DNA from: a virus
Direction: 5' to 3' (one strand)
Virus record (IMG/VR): IMGVR_UViG_3300022939_000017
Location: 1 to 64,000 of that record
DNA: 64,000 nt
The notes beneath the pieces are model-generated. The model ran no database searches. It was not told the DNA's origin and saw nothing but the letters and a program-made list of their open reading frames with translations. The position numbers and the translations under genes are program-made. This document shows positions 10,057 to 17,912 of this stretch, piece after piece. Numbering within the stretch: position 1 is the first letter of the stretch; each line of letters starts with the position of its first letter.

Positions 10057-11841
10057 TTATCCATCGCAAGCTACACAATCAGGGTCAACTGCTCGTGTTG
10101 CGATATCACCTCTGAGTACTGACTCAGTTCTCATATAATATAACGTTTTGATTCCTTGTTTCCATGCTTCCAAAGTAACTTGATTAATCCACTTTGGAGA
10201 TGCAATCGAAGGGAATGCAAGATTTAATGAAACAGCTTGGTCAATATATTGTTGTCTTACACCAGCTTGTTTAACTAAATCCATTTGATTTATTTCTTTA
10301 AATGTTCTAAATACATCCTTGACAGGGTAGATTTTTTCTCTATCACCATTTTCTATTTCACCACATAGAACCATCTTACCATCTAAGTAACACCACTTAT
10401 CGAGTTCGGTTAATCCTTGAATAGAACCACCATCTTCTAAGATTTGGTCCCAAGTATCTTTATTATTAATACCTGCTTTTCTTAAAACTTTTTCCAATTC
10501 TTTATTTCTACGAATAAAAGTTCCTTTTGCAGTTTGTTCTGTGAATATATTTGCTGCCCATGGTTCAATACCTGGTGATACATTCCCACTCAACTTTGAG
10601 TTGGATACTGTTGGTGCAACTGCTCTAAGGTGTGTGTTTCTAAATCCACTTTCTTTACACCATAGTGGTTCACCATATTCTGTTGCTAAATCACGAGATG
10701 CTCTTTCTGATTCAATCTTCATTTGGGAGAAGATTTTACGAGTTTCAAACTGTGCCTCCATACCTTCAAATGGAATACCTCTTTGTTGTAAGTAAGTATG
10801 CCATCCTAAAACTCCCAATCCTAATGCTCTACCTTTTTCTGCAGATGCAACTGAGTTTTCGAATCCTCTCATGTTCTTAGCCTTTTGGATAAACTCTGAA
10901 AGTACTCCATCTAAGAACCAAGTTGCGGTATAAATTAAATCAGTATCCTTCCACTCATCATACTTTGCTAAGTTGATTGAAGATAAACAACAAACGAATG
11001 AGTGATTCTCATCTGTATGTAGAGTAATTTCCGAACAGATATTAGTCATGAATACTTTTAATCCATTCTTTTTGTACATCTCTGGATTATTCTTATTCAC
11101 ATTTCCTTTAAACATGATATAAGGTTCACCAGTTGCTTTTCTTTTTTGTAGTAATTTTCCCCACTTTCTTCTTGCAACCTCATCACCATCTTGAAGTTTT
11201 CTCATAAACTTATCACCTACAACTGCACATTGGTGTAGGTTGAGTGATTGTCTATTTACATCACCTTTTGGTTCTCTGATTTCTAACCACTCTTCAAAAT
11301 CTTTGTGTTCAATGTTAAGGTTAACCGATGCGGCACCTCTTCTTACTGAACCTTGATTGGTTGCAAGGATTGTAGAATCATATATTTTTGTAAATGGTAC
11401 AACACCATCAGATGTTCCATTACCTGTAATTGGTGCACCTGCTGGTCTAATCTGATTAATACCTATACCAACCCCACCACCATGTTTAGCAAGTAACATG
11501 AGTTCTAAGTTCTTTTTTCCAATATCATAAATAGAATCGGCTACATCGATACCAAAACAAGAGATAGGTAATCCTCTATCAGTGCCTGTATTTGAAAGGA
11601 CTGGGGTTGCTAAGTTCAACCAACCTTTCCAAATATAATCAAAGAACTTAGTTGCTAAATGTGGTTTGTTTAATCTCTGAGCTACTCGTGTTGCAACTCT
11701 CCAATAAGCATCTTTAGGTTTTTCACCAGCAAGTAAGTAACCTTTAGAGATTGTTTTTACATAAATCTCTGTATTACCCCATGATGGAAAATCTACATCA
11801 AGTTCCCAACCTAATTCTTCTCCGTAATTTATCTTAGCCAT
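10057..11841 (-). CDS. nrdA: Class Ia ribonucleotide reductase, large subunit
   Basis: 594 aa, shorter than the approximately 760-aa E. coli enzyme; the N-terminal ATP-cone domain that controls overall activity is missing. Active-site residues are present: Cys95 in PISCFG, the radical triad Asn267-Cys269-Glu271 in TNICSEI, and a Cys at 284/285 in FVCCLSS. The C-terminal redox pair is Cys589/Cys592 in DPDCVACDG. With NrdB it turns ribonucleoside diphosphates into deoxy forms for phage DNA synthesis. Loss of the ATP cone would make it insensitive to dATP inhibition, a common phage trait (inference). The start overlaps the stop of a 47-aa ORF. Confidence 0.95.
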   Translation of the reverse strand: MAKINYGEELGWELDVDFPSWGNTEIYVKTISKGYLLAGEKPKDAYWRVATRVAQRLNKPHLATKFFDYIWKGWLNLATPVLSNTGTDRGLPISCFGIDVADSIYDIGKKNLELMLLAKHGGGVGIGINQIRPAGAPITGNGTSDGVVPFTKIYDSTILATNQGSVRRGAASVNLNIEHKDFEEWLEIREPKGDVNRQSLNLHQCAVVGDKFMRKLQDGDEVARRKWGKLLQKRKATGEPYIMFKGNVNKNNPEMYKKNGLKVFMTNICSEITLHTDENHSFVCCLSSINLAKYDEWKDTDLIYTATWFLDGVLSEFIQKAKNMRGFENSVASAEKGRALGLGVLGWHTYLQQRGIPFEGMEAQFETRKIFSQMKIESERASRDLATEYGEPLWCKESGFRNTHLRAVAPTVSNSKLSGNVSPGIEPWAANIFTEQTAKGTFIRRNKELEKVLRKAGINNKDTWDQILEDGGSIQGLTELDKWCYLDGKMVLCGEIENGDREKIYPVKDVFRTFKEINQMDLVKQAGVRQQYIDQAVSLNLAFPSIASPKWINQVTLEAWKQGIKTLYYMRTESVLRGDIATRAVDPDCVACDG

Positions 11842-11977
11842 TTCTTTTTAATTTTATAATATTATACTTTATTGCTCTCCACAACATATTCATAGCAATA
11901 CCAGAAGTATTTGGATAATATTTAATACTTCTACCTCCCATGACTGGGTGTTTTCTAATGTGATAATCAGTTTTCAT
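11834..11977 (-). CDS. Small 47-aa ORF bridging mazG and nrdA
   Basis: Encodes a basic peptide starting MKTDYHIRKHPVMGGRSIKY and ending KLKRNG. Its ATG (11975-11977) lies inside the end of the MazG-like gene and its TAA (11834-11836) lies just inside nrdA, so it fills the intergenic space exactly and is overlapped on both sides. That close packing is typical of translational coupling. No family recognised. Confidence 0.5.
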   Translation of the reverse strand: MKTDYHIRKHPVMGGRSIKYYPNTSGIAMNMLWRAIKYNIIKLKRNG

Positions 11978-12272
11978 TCTTTACAAAAACACCATCAACA
12001 GTTTTACCTGTTCTATCTTTTATTTCATTCCATGCTGCCTCTAAACATTCTGTTGGTGATAAACCCAATTGTTTAGATAAAATAATAAGTGTAACGAAAG
12101 AGTCTCCAATACCATCTTTAATCTCTGTTTCGTTTCCTTTTAAAAGTGCTCCTGCAGTTTCTCCAACTTCTTCTAACACTTTTAACATTTGTTTGGGAGC
12201 ATTATCTTTTACAAGGATTCCTTTCTCCTGTGCCCAAACTAATACGTTATCTGATAATTCATCAAATGTCAT
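11967..12272 (-). CDS. MazG-like nucleotide pyrophosphohydrolase
   Basis: 101 aa. EEVGETAGALLKG and the later DGIGDSFVTLIILSKQLG (about 54-71) carry the EExxE...ExxD-type magnesium-binding pattern of the all-alpha NTP pyrophosphatase (MazG/dUTPase-2) superfamily. Enzymes of this type hydrolyse (d)NTPs to monophosphates; phage MazG proteins have also been linked to host alarmone levels. Its place between nrdB and nrdA supports a role in the deoxynucleotide pool. Confidence 0.85.
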   Translation of the reverse strand: MTFDELSDNVLVWAQEKGILVKDNAPKQMLKVLEEVGETAGALLKGNETEIKDGIGDSFVTLIILSKQLGLSPTECLEAAWNEIKDRTGKTVDGVFVKNEN

Positions 12273-12288
12273 AATTGTAACCTTTTAT

Positions 12289-13284
12289 TTAAAATAAATC
12301 ATCCCAATCCTCACCCTCGTTTGCCTTACTATAATCAGTAGGTCTTATTGCGAAGAAATCGGTGTGAGTATGTCCACCAGTCAAGTGGTAGAACCAATCG
12401 AGATTATCTGCTTTTTTATTGTTATATTCAAAGATACCTTCGTATCCTAATTCTTCCAACTTAGAGTTGGTTCTTGCTTTTATAAATTCTTTTAAATCAG
12501 ATGCTGATAGGTTTTCTAAATCACCCATCTCAAACATCTTATCAATAAAATTAGATTCGAGTTCTACGATTAATTTTGAAGCCTCTTGAATTGAATCTTT
12601 ACATTGTTCTAACAATTCAGGATATTCATCACACATATGTCTGAACAACTGACAACCCATACGAGAATGAAGAGATTCATCTCTTACACTCCATTTCATT
12701 TGTTGTCCAATACCTTTTAACTTGTTTCTCATTTGGAATGAGTAGAGTACCGCAAATGAAGAATATAGTGATACTCCTTCAGCGAATGCTGAAAAGATTG
12801 CTAAACTTCTACCAACTTCTTGTCTTGCCTTTTCGTTGGTTTGTAAATCTTCATGTGTCCAATCAGCAGTTGTTGAAGTTAGGAGTTCGAACTTCTCGGC
12901 AGTTGCAGGTTCGTGCAAAAATGCCTCGAAGTCCTCTAACCCTAATGTTTCATTTAGGTAAGAATATGCAGTAGCATGGATAGTTTCTTGTGAACCAAAC
13001 ATCATTGCCATCTGACGGATTTCGTGTTTAGGAAACCATTTGGTTACCATCGTTGTCCAATAATCAGAAACTGCACATTCGGTTTGAGCAAATCCAAGTA
13101 AGATATTTCCTACCAAGTTTTTTTCTTCAGATGTAAGTGTTTCGTTCCAATCTTTAACATCCATTTGCATGGGTATCTCAGTATGAAGCCAAAATGCTTG
13201 TGCCTGTTTCAACCAACCTTCATTATAGTAGATTGGATATTCGAATGGTTTGAAAGGAATTCTTTCTTGGAATAGTTTGCTCAT
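12289..13284 (-). CDS. nrdB: Ribonucleotide reductase, small (radical) subunit
   Basis: 331 aa, ferritin-like. Di-iron ligands are visible in SQETIHATAYSYL (Glu and His, with the nearby Tyr as the likely radical site) and in VRDESLHSRMGCQLF (Glu and His). It supplies the tyrosyl radical to NrdA encoded just downstream. Operon order is nrdB, mazG-like, 47-aa ORF, nrdA, thioredoxin. Confidence 0.95.
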   Translation of the reverse strand: MSKLFQERIPFKPFEYPIYYNEGWLKQAQAFWLHTEIPMQMDVKDWNETLTSEEKNLVGNILLGFAQTECAVSDYWTTMVTKWFPKHEIRQMAMMFGSQETIHATAYSYLNETLGLEDFEAFLHEPATAEKFELLTSTTADWTHEDLQTNEKARQEVGRSLAIFSAFAEGVSLYSSFAVLYSFQMRNKLKGIGQQMKWSVRDESLHSRMGCQLFRHMCDEYPELLEQCKDSIQEASKLIVELESNFIDKMFEMGDLENLSASDLKEFIKARTNSKLEELGYEGIFEYNNKKADNLDWFYHLTGGHTHTDFFAIRPTDYSKANEGEDWDDLF

Positions 13285-13303
13285 GTTTTTATAACCTATG
13301 TGT

Positions 13304-13474
13304 TTATTTGTTTTCTTCTACTGATGCTTTTCTGTAATCTGTTACAAGTTTTTTAATTTCACCGATGTGTTTTCTAGCTCTCGATTTAGCTGCTTTTGAT
13401 GAACCATTGTGTTCTTCTTCGAATTGAACAAACAAATCTTTAATTTGTTCAAAAAGTTCTTGTGAATTTGCCAT
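13304..13474 (-). CDS. Histone H1-like (Hc1-type) DNA-binding protein
   Basis: 56 aa. An acidic N-terminal half (MANSQELFEQIKDL..., EEEH) is followed by SSKAAKSRARKHIGEIKKL and ending VTDYRKASVEENK. The pattern KAAxxRARKxxxEIKKLxxxxRK is the core of the Bacteroidota Hc1-like histone H1 family, small proteins of similar size. They bind and compact DNA; in a phage the protein could coat or package phage DNA or mimic the host nucleoid protein. It stands immediately upstream of nrdB (19 nt gap) with GGA before the ATG. Recognition rests on pattern memory, not on an alignment run. Confidence 0.75.
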   Translation of the reverse strand: MANSQELFEQIKDLFVQFEEEHNGSSKAAKSRARKHIGEIKKLVTDYRKASVEENK

Positions 13475-13505
13475 AAAATATTCCTTTTTTTAAAATTGAT
13501 TAGAA

Positions 13506-13523
13506 CCACTCTACTTCGAGTGG
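13506..13523 (-). other. Hairpin in the leader of the Hc1-like gene
   Basis: CCACTC-tacttc-GAGTGG forms a perfect 6-bp stem with a 6-nt loop, 32 nt before the Hc1-like ATG. No T-run follows directly on the minus strand, so it is more likely an mRNA leader structure or protein-binding site than a terminator. Confidence 0.45.
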
Positions 13524-13547
13524 GTGTTTATAATTATCATATATATC

Positions 13548-13567
13548 CAAAAACAAAATTGTTTTTG
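13548..13567 (-). terminator. Possible terminator after the methyltransferase gene
   Basis: Perfect inverted repeat CAAAAACAA/TTGTTTTTG, 80 nt past the methyltransferase stop codon. The stem is AT-rich and its own T-run is the only one, so termination would be weak. The 13475-13647 interval otherwise holds the leader hairpin and no gene. Confidence 0.3.
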
Positions 13568-13647
13568 TGTTATTTTTTTTAACTTTTTAATTTTGTTATA
13601 CTAACTTAATTTTTTAATGAGGGGTGTGATAATTTTTTGATACACTA

Positions 13648-15177
13648 TCACCAAAATTTTTTTGATGATTTGTTAATTTTAACCCTTTTATTTTTTTGTT
13701 TATCATATGGATTATCTTTCTCATATTGAATACGAGCAGTTGCAATCTCCATATATTCTTTTTCTCGTTCTATACCAACAAAGTCAAACCCACCTCTAAC
13801 TGCAGCCTTACCTGTTGAACCACTACCCATAAACGGGTCAAGAGTTGTTCCACCTTTTGGAGTTACTAATCTGATTAAGTATAACATCAAATCAGTTGGT
13901 TTTACAGTTGGGTGGTTATTTTTACTATAAGGATTACGAGTATTTCCTCCTCCCGTTAATGCATTTTCAAAGTTCTGCGATGTTATATGAGATTTTCTCT
14001 TTTCTTCAAACCCATCCAACCCTTCGTTTCTATCAGTTTTAGAAGTTTTTGGACAATAGAAGAAACGAGATGCTCCACCTTCATCACCACCATAGTTTCT
14101 GTCTATTATACCACCACCACCGCCGTTGGCATAACTATTTCCCGTTCCAACACCTCTTTTATGACCTGCATTTAGATTACCACTTTTCAATATACCAGTT
14201 TGTTCATCCAAGATTTTACCAGCTTCTTCATCAAAGATTATGTTTGCAGGAAATCTGCCTTGTTGATACTCCCATTCAAGATTTTCATAACTTTTTACAT
14301 CAGGTGTGTCTTTATTGTTTTCTTTATATACCTGTGAAAATGTATTACCAATATGTCTTTTTTGTGGGATAATTTCAGTTCCTATCCTACTTTCATCTAT
14401 GTTTATTCCACCTGTTCCCCACTCTAATACATTATCAACTACTGTTTTTTCTGAAAGTGGTTTTCTTGCCATTACTATTGGTTCATGTGCGGGTTTAAGA
14501 GCAGTTCCCCAACCTTCCCATTCAGTATTTCCTTTGGTTACTTCGATTTCACCTGGTGTATAATCTCCACCAATGTTTTGCATTACACCAAGATTTGTTT
14601 TTAGTTTTCCTAAAACTTCTCTTTTAGTTTCAATAATTGGATTATTTTCTAAATTTAATATTTCTATAAGTTTATTAAATTGTTCTGGTGTTATACTACC
14701 CCTACCTGTTTCCCAATTAGATACAGTACCTCCATGATTTGTTTTTCCATAAAATTTACCAAGTTCAGCAAGTTGTATAGTAGATAATCCCATTTCTAAT
14801 CGTTTCTTCTTTACGAGTTCAGCAACTTCTTTACCAAGTGAATTTCCACCTTGTTTATCAACTGCTTTACCAATGTTATGTGATTTAGGAAAGCCACTTC
14901 CATATATCCACATGATTTGGTCTCTAATCTCAAATCCCGCATCTTCTATTCTAATCGCCATTCGGTGATAAGTTCTACTACCAGCAAATGATAAAAGATG
15001 ACCACCTGGTTTTAGAACTCTATAACATTGTTCCCAAATCTCTTGTGAAGGAACATCGTAATCCCATTTCTTTCCCATAAAGGATAAACCATATGGAGGG
15101 TCTGTAACTATTGAGTCAATACTATTATCATCTAACTCTTTGAGTTTGTCTATACAATCTCCTAATAATAATTTCAT
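13648..15177 (-). CDS. DNA methyltransferase (beta-type order) with inserted XRE-like HTH
   Basis: 509 aa. TDPPYG (residues 25-30) is catalytic motif IV; near the C terminus TVKPTDLMLYLIRLVTP is followed by DPFMGSGSTGKAA, the AdoMet motif I. Motif IV before motif I is the beta arrangement of DNA amino-methyltransferases, probably N6-adenine or N4-cytosine. Residues about 112-180 hold a segment absent from the tandem paralogue downstream-in-coordinate (15179-16549): KKRLEMGLSTIQLAELGKF and TVSNWETGRGSITPEQFNKL, a clear XRE/Cro-type helix-turn-helix. The start lies 1 nt past the end of the paralogue. The enzyme likely modifies phage DNA; the HTH may add target binding or autoregulation (inference). 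Confidence 0.88.
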   Translation of the reverse strand: MKLLLGDCIDKLKELDDNSIDSIVTDPPYGLSFMGKKWDYDVPSQEIWEQCYRVLKPGGHLLSFAGSRTYHRMAIRIEDAGFEIRDQIMWIYGSGFPKSHNIGKAVDKQGGNSLGKEVAELVKKKRLEMGLSTIQLAELGKFYGKTNHGGTVSNWETGRGSITPEQFNKLIEILNLENNPIIETKREVLGKLKTNLGVMQNIGGDYTPGEIEVTKGNTEWEGWGTALKPAHEPIVMARKPLSEKTVVDNVLEWGTGGINIDESRIGTEIIPQKRHIGNTFSQVYKENNKDTPDVKSYENLEWEYQQGRFPANIIFDEEAGKILDEQTGILKSGNLNAGHKRGVGTGNSYANGGGGGIIDRNYGGDEGGASRFFYCPKTSKTDRNEGLDGFEEKRKSHITSQNFENALTGGGNTRNPYSKNNHPTVKPTDLMLYLIRLVTPKGGTTLDPFMGSGSTGKAAVRGGFDFVGIEREKEYMEIATARIQYEKDNPYDKQKNKRVKINKSSKKFW

Positions 15178-15178
15178 A

Positions 15179-16549
15179 TTACCAAAATTTATTTGAGTTT
15201 TTATTTATTTCTATTCTTTCTCCTTTTTCTTCGTTGTAAGGATTATCTTGTTCATATTGGATTCTTGCTTTAGCAATCTCCATATATTCTTTATCCATTT
15301 CTATACCAACGAAATCAAACCCACCTCTAACTGCAGCCTTACCTGTTGAACCACTACCCATAAAAGGGTCAAGTGTTGTTCCACTTTTTGGAGTAACCAT
15401 TCTAATAAGATATAACATCAAATCAGTTGGTTTTACTGTTGGGTGATTGTTTTTCTTCGGTTGAACAGGTTTTCGTTCTGAGCCATCTGGTCTGAACTTA
15501 TTAGTATTCATACCATAGGGTTGTCCATCATCCCTCTTTGGTGCCTCCTTATCCTCAAAATCATCTAATCCTTCATTCCTATCAGTTTTAGAAGTTTTTG
15601 GACAATAAAAGAAACGAGATGCTCCACCACTATCACCATAATATGTTTGTTCTAACTCATTATCAGCAGAACCATATATTCCATTCTTACCCCAACCTTT
15701 ATACTTTCCTGGCATATCACCACTTTTTAGTTCACCAGTTTGTTCATCAAGGATTTTACCAGCTTCTTCATCAAAGATTATGTTTGCAGGAAATCTACCT
15801 TGTGGGTTTATTTGACTTTCTTGATTTGGTATTTTATCAGGTCTTGGATTTCCATTATTGGCAAAGTTAGTTGTATGAACATTTTTATTATCAATACTTC
15901 TATGGTTTGGGTCATTCTCATCAACTCCTATTCTACTTGCATCTATATTTATTCCACCAGTTCCCCATTCTAATACATTATCAACTACTGTTTTTTCACT
16001 CAAAGGTTTTCTGGCCATTACGATTGGTTCGTGTGCAGGTTTTAATGCAGTTCCCCAACCTTCCCATTCACTATTACCTTTTGTTATAGTTTGTGTTCCA
16101 TATCCAAATTGTTTGGTATTATTTCTATTTGCAGGGTCAGCTAAGTAACCAGCACCATTTTCCTTTGCCTTTTGAACATCACCCCTTACTTTTTCACCAA
16201 CTACTTCTCTTTGATTACCAAGTTTTTTATCAACTTGTATTCCTATATTGAGTGATTTTGGAAAACCTGAACCATATATCCACATGATTTGGTCTCTTAT
16301 TTCAAAACCTGCATCCTCAATCCTAACTGCCATTCTATGGTAAGTTCTACTACCAGCAAATGATAAAAGATGACCACCTGGTTTTAGAACCCTATAACAT
16401 TCTTCCCATATTTCTTGTGAGGGAACATCGTAATCCCATTTTTTTCCCATAAAAGATAAACCATAGGGTGGGTCTGTAACAATACTATCTACACTATTGT
16501 CATCAAGTTCTTTCAGTTTATCTATACAATCTCCTAATAATAACTTCAT
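15179..16549 (-). CDS. DNA methyltransferase, tandem paralogue without HTH insert
   Basis: 456 aa from the ATG at 16547-16549 (MKLLLGDCIDKL, the same start as its paralogue). The first 110 residues are almost identical to the 13648-15177 product, including TDPPYG at 25-30, and the last 80 again match, with DPFMGSGSTGKAA. The centre differs: here about 45 residues (KLGNQREVVGEKVRGD...) replace the XRE-like domain. The tandem arrangement points to duplication followed by divergence in the middle, where target recognition is expected. The start overlaps the end of the helicase gene by a short stretch only if the upstream in-frame ATG is used, so the shorter start was chosen. Confidence 0.88.
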   Translation of the reverse strand: MKLLLGDCIDKLKELDDNSVDSIVTDPPYGLSFMGKKWDYDVPSQEIWEECYRVLKPGGHLLSFAGSRTYHRMAVRIEDAGFEIRDQIMWIYGSGFPKSLNIGIQVDKKLGNQREVVGEKVRGDVQKAKENGAGYLADPANRNNTKQFGYGTQTITKGNSEWEGWGTALKPAHEPIVMARKPLSEKTVVDNVLEWGTGGINIDASRIGVDENDPNHRSIDNKNVHTTNFANNGNPRPDKIPNQESQINPQGRFPANIIFDEEAGKILDEQTGELKSGDMPGKYKGWGKNGIYGSADNELEQTYYGDSGGASRFFYCPKTSKTDRNEGLDDFEDKEAPKRDDGQPYGMNTNKFRPDGSERKPVQPKKNNHPTVKPTDLMLYLIRMVTPKSGTTLDPFMGSGSTGKAAVRGGFDFVGIEMDKEYMEIAKARIQYEQDNPYNEEKGERIEINKNSNKFW

Positions 16550-16550
16550 A

Positions 16551-17912
16551 TTACCCCATATTTTCCACATATTTCTTGTGTAAAAGTTTCTTTGTTTCTA
16601 ATTGACCACTTGCCGCTTCTTTCTGAGCAATTACACCATCAGGTGATGTTCCATCATAAACTTCAATGTATCCTGTATTGGTATTCATTTTACAAGGGAA
16701 TGTAATTCCATCAGGCCCAAATCTGTTTTTCATTATGTGAGCTCGAGCAGTATCATTTAGTTTATCTTTTGATTTTCTACTCCAACTCATAATGAAATCA
16801 GCATTCATTACTTTTGCATAAGAATCAGCAATTTTATCAGCCTCAATAACTTCTGAATCAATAGCCGAGCGGTTGGTTTGAGATGCAGTCCATACTGGTA
16901 TTTCCAATTCTCCACTCATTCCTCGAAGGTCGATATATACTCCCCCTTGCTCTGCATAAGTAGAGTCTGACTTATTTGAGTGGGAGAGTAAAAGGTCAGC
17001 GTAATCAACTATGATAACATCGGGCTTGTTATCTAACGTAACCATTTTCTCAATATGTTGCTGTAACTTCTTTACCGTAACACCTTTTGGTGGGAAATAT
17101 TTAATTAAGAGTTTCCCTTTGAGATTGGTGATTTTCGCTTTAACCTCATCTTTTTTATCCTTCAATTCTGCCGAGGGAGTACCAGTAAACACAGTATCAT
17201 ATCGAGCACCTACATAGTGTTCTGATAATTCCATTGTGTAATGTACTACACTCAAACCTTGCCGAACGGCTTCTGCACCAATTGCGGTGAGAATCCATGT
17301 TTTACCAACACCCGAAGGTGCTACAACTACTCCCAATTCACCTGGTCCTAATCCACCATCCATTAAATCGTTGATAGGTTGCCATTTTGTTGGAACAGTT
17401 GTTCTTTTTAAATCTTGTACTCTTTCATCATAATCTTCAATATAATCCATACCCAAGTTGTTTTCTTGACCAACCTTCATAGCTCTATCTACTAAATCTT
17501 TGATTCTATCATAAGAACCAGCCTTTAGTAAATCAACTGATTGTAGGATTACTCCTTTAAGATTTTGATTAATACAGAAGTTTGTGAATTCGTTTTTTAT
17601 ATAATCCAAATCTACATTACCAACTTGAGTGAAAACATGACGGAGTTGTTCAACTACCGTTTTCTTTAACACTTCATTATCTACTTTTGATAATTGCGAT
17701 TTGAATACATCCAATGTAGGAGGTTTTCTGTACACTTCATGATATTCAAGTATCTCAGATACAATCCACTTGTTAGCATCGTTCTCAAAGAACTTAGGAG
17801 TGGTTATTTCACTAATTGTATCAAGAAACTTGGTATCAGTAATAAGTGCAGAAACTACTTTACTTTGAAATGATTGCCCGTATTTCGATAAAGTATCTAT
17901 TTGTTCTTGCAT
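16551..17912 (-). CDS. Replicative DNA helicase, DnaB/gp41-like
   Basis: 453 aa. RecA-type core with Walker A APSGVGKT (198-205), Walker B in PDVIIVDYADLLLS (about 310-322) and the DnaB-like sequence WTASQTNRSA soon after. The N-terminal 150 residues form the helical domain usual in hexameric DnaB/gp41 helicases. It unwinds the fork ahead of the family-B polymerase. Class I promoter 22 nt before the ATG; the two methyltransferases follow on the same transcript. Confidence 0.93.
   Translation of the reverse strand: MQEQIDTLSKYGQSFQSKVVSALITDTKFLDTISEITTPKFFENDANKWIVSEILEYHEVYRKPPTLDVFKSQLSKVDNEVLKKTVVEQLRHVFTQVGNVDLDYIKNEFTNFCINQNLKGVILQSVDLLKAGSYDRIKDLVDRAMKVGQENNLGMDYIEDYDERVQDLKRTTVPTKWQPINDLMDGGLGPGELGVVVAPSGVGKTWILTAIGAEAVRQGLSVVHYTMELSEHYVGARYDTVFTGTPSAELKDKKDEVKAKITNLKGKLLIKYFPPKGVTVKKLQQHIEKMVTLDNKPDVIIVDYADLLLSHSNKSDSTYAEQGGVYIDLRGMSGELEIPVWTASQTNRSAIDSEVIEADKIADSYAKVMNADFIMSWSRKSKDKLNDTARAHIMKNRFGPDGITFPCKMNTNTGYIEVYDGTSPDGVIAQKEAASGQLETKKLLHKKYVENMG

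Follow-up and report, generated by a model that had tools for sequence, protein, structure and literature searches.

A tail-less Hc1-domain (PF07432) gene at the head of a phage ribonucleotide reductase run, and a putative nucleoid-type role for its product

A 56-codon open reading frame in the window (the whole 64,000-nucleotide stretch analysed, positions 1 to 64,000 of IMG/VR virus record IMGVR_UViG_3300022939_000017, from a marine phage) is a real, conserved gene under purifying selection, which we call hc1. By its sequence, hc1 encodes a protein of the PF07432 (Hc1) family that has no tail, a form known from cells of Bacteroidota and from many phages. Our best guess, to which we assign a probability of roughly 0.55, is that the product forms a small dimer, is made alongside the replication genes and binds DNA as nucleoid-type proteins do; this reading draws on the sequence, a structural model and analogy. 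The features discussed below are collected in the table.

Features of the hc1 locus (window coordinates)
Feature	Position	Strand	Basis
hc1, PF07432 (Hc1-domain) protein, 56 aa	13304..13474	minus	ORF and translation, Pfam, AlphaFold2
AAGGA, ribosome-binding-like, 7 nt 5' of the hc1 ATG	13482..13486	minus	read in the sequence
Leader hairpin CCACTC-GAAGTA-GAGTGG	13506..13523	minus	stem pairing kept across relatives
Conserved promoter-like element ATATATANNATARTTATA	13529..13546	minus	sequence conservation in leaders
nrdB, class Ia ribonucleotide reductase small subunit	12289..13284	minus	PHROG 86, E 2.8e-72
MazG-like pyrophosphatase, same run	11967..12272	minus	PHROG 1992, E 3.6e-36
nrdA, ribonucleotide reductase large subunit	10057..11841	minus	PHROG 84, E 1.4e-154
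DnaB-like replicative helicase	16551..17912	minus	PHROG 19, E 2.2e-76; synteny

The sequence-only reading had proposed a 56-residue protein at this position, had assigned it to the Hc1 family and had suggested a profile search as the check. The open reading frame was found exactly there, with an ATG start codon and the translation MANSQELFEQIKDLFVQFEEEHNGSSKAAKSRARKHIGEIKKLVTDYRKASVEENK, and both the assignment and the check held: the protein matched Pfam PF07432 with 40.5 bits (E 2.5e-10) against a curated cut-off of 23.5 bits. The alignment covers residues 6-56 and positions 2-56 of the 57 in the profile, that is, the full domain, and no other PF07432 match was detected in the 71,415-base viral record of which the window is part. 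Searches of PHROGs and NCBIfam with the protein returned no match, and standard phage annotation would therefore miss the gene. When viral contigs were scanned with the hc1 protein, 457 stretches were obtained, 442 of which encode a relative; the best 80 of these 442 loci, a set selected by hc1 itself, were kept. All proteins of a diverse alignment (64/64) match PF07432. Over 72 distinct 56-codon hc1 genes pN/pS was 0.215, a figure that rests on this group (values for the 60- and 61-residue groups, whose genes had been compared unaligned and were out of register, were discarded), and change at codon positions 1, 2 and 3 was 0.13, 0.07 and 0.33 in the same genes. The profile match, the conserved gene order described below and the pN/pS value together rule out a chance open reading frame.

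The label "histone H1 protein" fared less well: the PF07432 domain is there, but "histone" is an overstatement for a protein that has no tail and a pI of 8.05. In chlamydial Hc1 the N-terminal domain dimerises and a lysine-rich C-terminal tail binds DNA (PMC2848022; see also PMC3469542). Chlamydia Hc1 (HctA) and hc1 have in common the conserved N-terminal domain, which, by its name and the literature, is the part that PF07432 describes; hc1 lacks the lysine-rich C-terminal DNA-binding domain, however, and ends with the domain at residue 56. A lysine-rich tail was sought in the phage members seen and in the Bacteroides homologues and was absent except in one phage member (L280), which is longer by a basic stretch of about 11 residues. 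Since hc1 and its Bacteroides homologues represent the first part of Hc1 only, the family name alone does not predict DNA compaction. Nor do other histone classes fit. The winged-helix domain of eukaryotic linker histone H1 was not found, the predicted structure being a two-helix hairpin, and there was no linker-histone Pfam match. As to the histone fold of the archaeal or Bdellovibrio type and HU/IHF, Hc1 alone passes the Pfam cut-off, and the hc1 model consists of two helices only and has no confident structural match. Calling hc1 a histone, or assigning to it the DNA compaction or interference with host nucleoid proteins that the sequence-only reading suggested, exceeds the evidence.

AlphaFold2, run with a 64-row alignment, predicted a hairpin whose two helices span residues 4-22 and 27-54 (mean pLDDT 96.9, pTM 0.78). 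Foldseek searches of the PDB and of viral libraries gave no match with E below 0.001, and the LSD1 and ribosomal-protein matches that appeared were set aside as generic helical hairpins. R32, R34, K35, K41, K42 and R48 are invariant in 64/64 proteins, and K27 and K49 are nearly so. When helix 2 is projected on a wheel, the basic residues centre at about 190 degrees (permutation p 0.044), R32 being the exception to this face, and the hydrophobic residues at about 31 degrees (permutation p 0.0095). The invariant basic residues on helix 2 make DNA binding plausible for the predicted structure. Against this reading stand the missing tail, a net charge of only +1 and an acidic helix 1; among relatives the charge ranges from 0 to +4 in the 56-residue group and from +1 to +7 in the longer group. 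In the literature library searched, no paper on the function of the tail-less PF07432 form was found. We suggest that the hc1 protein would dimerise like its homologue, the N-terminal domain of chlamydial Hc1, and that the basic faces of the paired helices may bind DNA without sequence preference. Made together with the helicase and ribonucleotide reductase genes, it could then act in a nucleoid-type manner on the DNA of the replicating phage, the nucleoid of the host, or both. T4 MotB, a phage protein that binds DNA without sequence specificity, is expressed early and copurifies with H-NS (PMC6070864), would be a parallel in function only, and we claim no homology.

The same domain occurs, whole-length, in cellular proteins annotated as "histone H1", such as those of Bacteroides finegoldii (WP_007750534) and Parabacteroides distasonis (WP_004308720). 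These have 57-58 residues, the NKAA-TRARK and FRK-S motifs and, like hc1, no lysine-rich tail. They are about 39-44% identical to hc1, and the cellular forms branch separately; in the phage clade the loop is four residues shorter, and GE[IVM]KKLVT[DE]YRK stands where the Bacteroidota proteins have LExEKxxKxFRK. Most other lineages have proteins of 59-62 residues, and the four residues fewer in the window clade fall in the turn between the helices, as they do in Immutovirus and in the 635-kb phage LR745206. A tree of 52 sequences, built from an alignment of only 61 columns and with many forks unresolved, supported the short-turn group (95/93) and grouped two Bacteroides-type proteins with one from Marinimicrobiota, apart from the phage group (97/80). 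Of the cellular relatives found, a 60-residue Marinimicrobiota protein with 53% identity is the nearest; as it sits among phage sequences in the tree, transfer is possible in either direction. One Marinimicrobiota genome (L084/G001, contigs C40 and C20) has two PF07432 genes, and the sequence of one resembles those of phages; a phylum-wide survey of cellular genomes, which covered the phylum of that genome, found 2 of 61 genomes PF07432-positive. Among isolated phages, Immutovirus immuto encodes gp196 (NC_055915, annotated as hypothetical), which has the same short loop and is 57% identical to hc1; its host is Flavobacterium sp. LMO8, and gp196 adjoins groEL whereas hc1 adjoins nrdB.

The domain would be equally suited to forming a dimer with a protein of the host, and it is the invariance of the basic residues that makes nucleic-acid binding our best guess for the predicted hairpin. 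A decoy that only dimerises, in which the phage hairpin would bind a tail-less Hc1 protein encoded by the host and so alter or block what that protein does at the host nucleoid, is improbable in our view. It would draw on the domain matched by PF07432, which is the one that dimerises in chlamydial Hc1 (PMC2848022), on the residues common to hc1 and its Bacteroides relatives of the same length (K27, A28, A29, R32, A33, R34, K35, E39, K42, R48, K49, S51 and K56), and on the predicted Bacteroidota hosts of the published jumbo phages with PF07432. Yet the signature of the phage proteins (G38 and KKLVT-Y) is unlike that of the Bacteroides sequences, which lie outside the phage group, and a pure decoy would have no need of invariant basic residues that face the surface.

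The DNA-binding reading also rests on where hc1 lies. In line with its description as the head of an nrd operon, hc1 heads a nrdB-mazG-nrdA run, its stop codon 19 nt before nrdB. The helicase is the constant upstream neighbour in the clade, and in the window two methyltransferase genes lie between. Nearly all of the kept loci with enough flank (from the best 80) have the order helicase, variable genes, hc1, nrdB, in some cases mazG, and nrdA; the gap from hc1 to nrdB is 12-43 nt. Because this locus set had been chosen by hc1, a second survey was anchored on nrdB, and here hc1 was directly upstream in 46/77 scorable loci. The remaining 31, with NrdB proteins 81-85% identical, have no hc1 in the slot, and in 30 of them a more distant helicase (42-53% identical) is directly upstream of nrdB. 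These loci, together with the other neighbourhoods described below, weaken the idea of hc1 as an obligate partner of nrdB. The distance between helicase and hc1 varies among relatives, and this slot thus gains and loses genes. The two methyltransferase genes in the window (13648-15177 and 15179-16570, minus strand) are adjacent and closely similar; residues 114-188 of the protein encoded at 13648-15177 match the PHROG 3 transcriptional-repressor family (E 2.1e-6), as if a helix-turn-helix segment had been inserted into the enzyme.

The leader of hc1 is itself conserved. The element ATATATANNATARTTATA has a single exact copy in the window, in this leader, and is found with two or fewer mismatches upstream of hc1 in 69/74 distinct leaders of the 56-residue group and in 0/53 of other lineages. 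About 5 bases after it, a hairpin is present in about 55/70 distinct leaders (mean z -3.3); the letters of the stem vary and the pairing is retained (CCACTC/GAGTGG, GACCA/TGGTC, CTACC/GGTAG). A subgroup with short leaders lacks the hairpin. Rfam found nothing over 12200-15200, and a simple sigma-70 scan of the gene's strand did not match the leader. Element and hairpin are specific to the leader of the hc1/ribonucleotide reductase operon in the window clade, and we read them from sequence as a probable operon promoter whose transcript would begin with a hairpin near its 5' end. The element stays with hc1 in two relatives that have a different, longer NrdB. At one locus of this kind (L331:3995-7887), with the leader element kept, hc1 is followed by a SET-like gene, named from its sequence, then by mazG and the longer NrdB gene.

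Outside the window clade hc1 is not tied to nrdB, and PF07432 genes occupy differing phage neighbourhoods. One of the 31 phages without hc1 in the slot (G073, 145 kb) encodes a divergent 57-residue PF07432 protein 17 nt before an SSB-like gene, which is followed by UvsX/RecA-like, exonuclease-like and helicase genes, the neighbours being named from sequence and by analogy with window genes; six shorter records of this group, all fragments, gave no PF07432 match. The Immutovirus gene lies 23 nt after groEL, and that of LR745206 follows a UvsX-like gene. A scan of viral contigs with a 61-residue relative returned 274 relatives. In one large group of these the gene is part of a tail module, flanked by an endolysin gene and a T4-type baseplate gene and preceded by those for tail tube and sheath; in another it comes after a gene for a ClpP-like protease, and a clamp loader gene lies two genes upstream; and in a third it is flanked by unidentified genes. 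The positions near SSB/UvsX, UvsX and clamp loader genes were counted for the replication-linked reading, and the link is not general, given the group in the tail module and the group among unidentified genes.

These placements bear on a role in the virion or in packaging, with the protein condensing DNA during head filling, as the authors of the moraphage report suggested for their homologue (PMC12619734). The homologue in the tail module, which has an endolysin gene and a baseplate gene as its neighbours, would suit such a role, as would the one after the ClpP-like gene, which resembles a head-maturation protease. In the window clade, however, the neighbours of hc1 are ribonucleotide reductase genes rather than structural genes, joint transcription with the former is probable from the leader element, and the near-neutral charge of the protein is unlike that of a DNA-condensing peptide; we regard this role as quite improbable for hc1. 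Least likely of all is that hc1 serves the replicative helicase or ribonucleotide reductase as a specific accessory and is no general DNA binder, as the helicase-hc1-nrdB order of essentially all clade loci might suggest, since homologues in other phages lie away from both genes, the 31 loci with NrdB 81-85% identical have no hc1 in the slot, and two relatives retain hc1 and its leader element with a different, longer NrdB.

PF07432 proteins in phages are already known: they were reported from four complete genomes of moraphages, jumbo phages of Bacteroidota, with a suggested role in packaging (PMC12619734, Arch Virol 2025). The histone H1-like protein of those phages belongs to the same Pfam family and likewise comes from large phages, with predicted Bacteroidota hosts. 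The moraphages are a lineage different from the window phage, a separation made by description only, and no function was shown for their protein. Our analysis adds to this the range of gene settings in which the family occurs, the absence of the tail, the conservation of a basic face on helix 2, and the leader element. A bolder idea, which we consider unlikely, is that the tail-less Hc1 hairpins of a widespread marine phage class insert into or replace a nucleoid protein of hosts of the Bacteroidota group, one shared domain in unrelated neighbourhoods taking over the host nucleoid; the domain, and not the lysine tail, would then be the ancestral DNA-binding unit.

Returning to the putative DNA-binding dimer, its interest lies in how the family has been understood. 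Annotation labels PF07432 proteins as histones, and the paper that first noted them in phages again likened them to H1. By sequence, the members from phages and from Bacteroides comprise only the part that does not bind DNA in the characterised protein. As relatives occur in many viral contigs and in an isolated phage-host pair (Immutovirus with Flavobacterium sp. LMO8), the function of the domain is directly testable.
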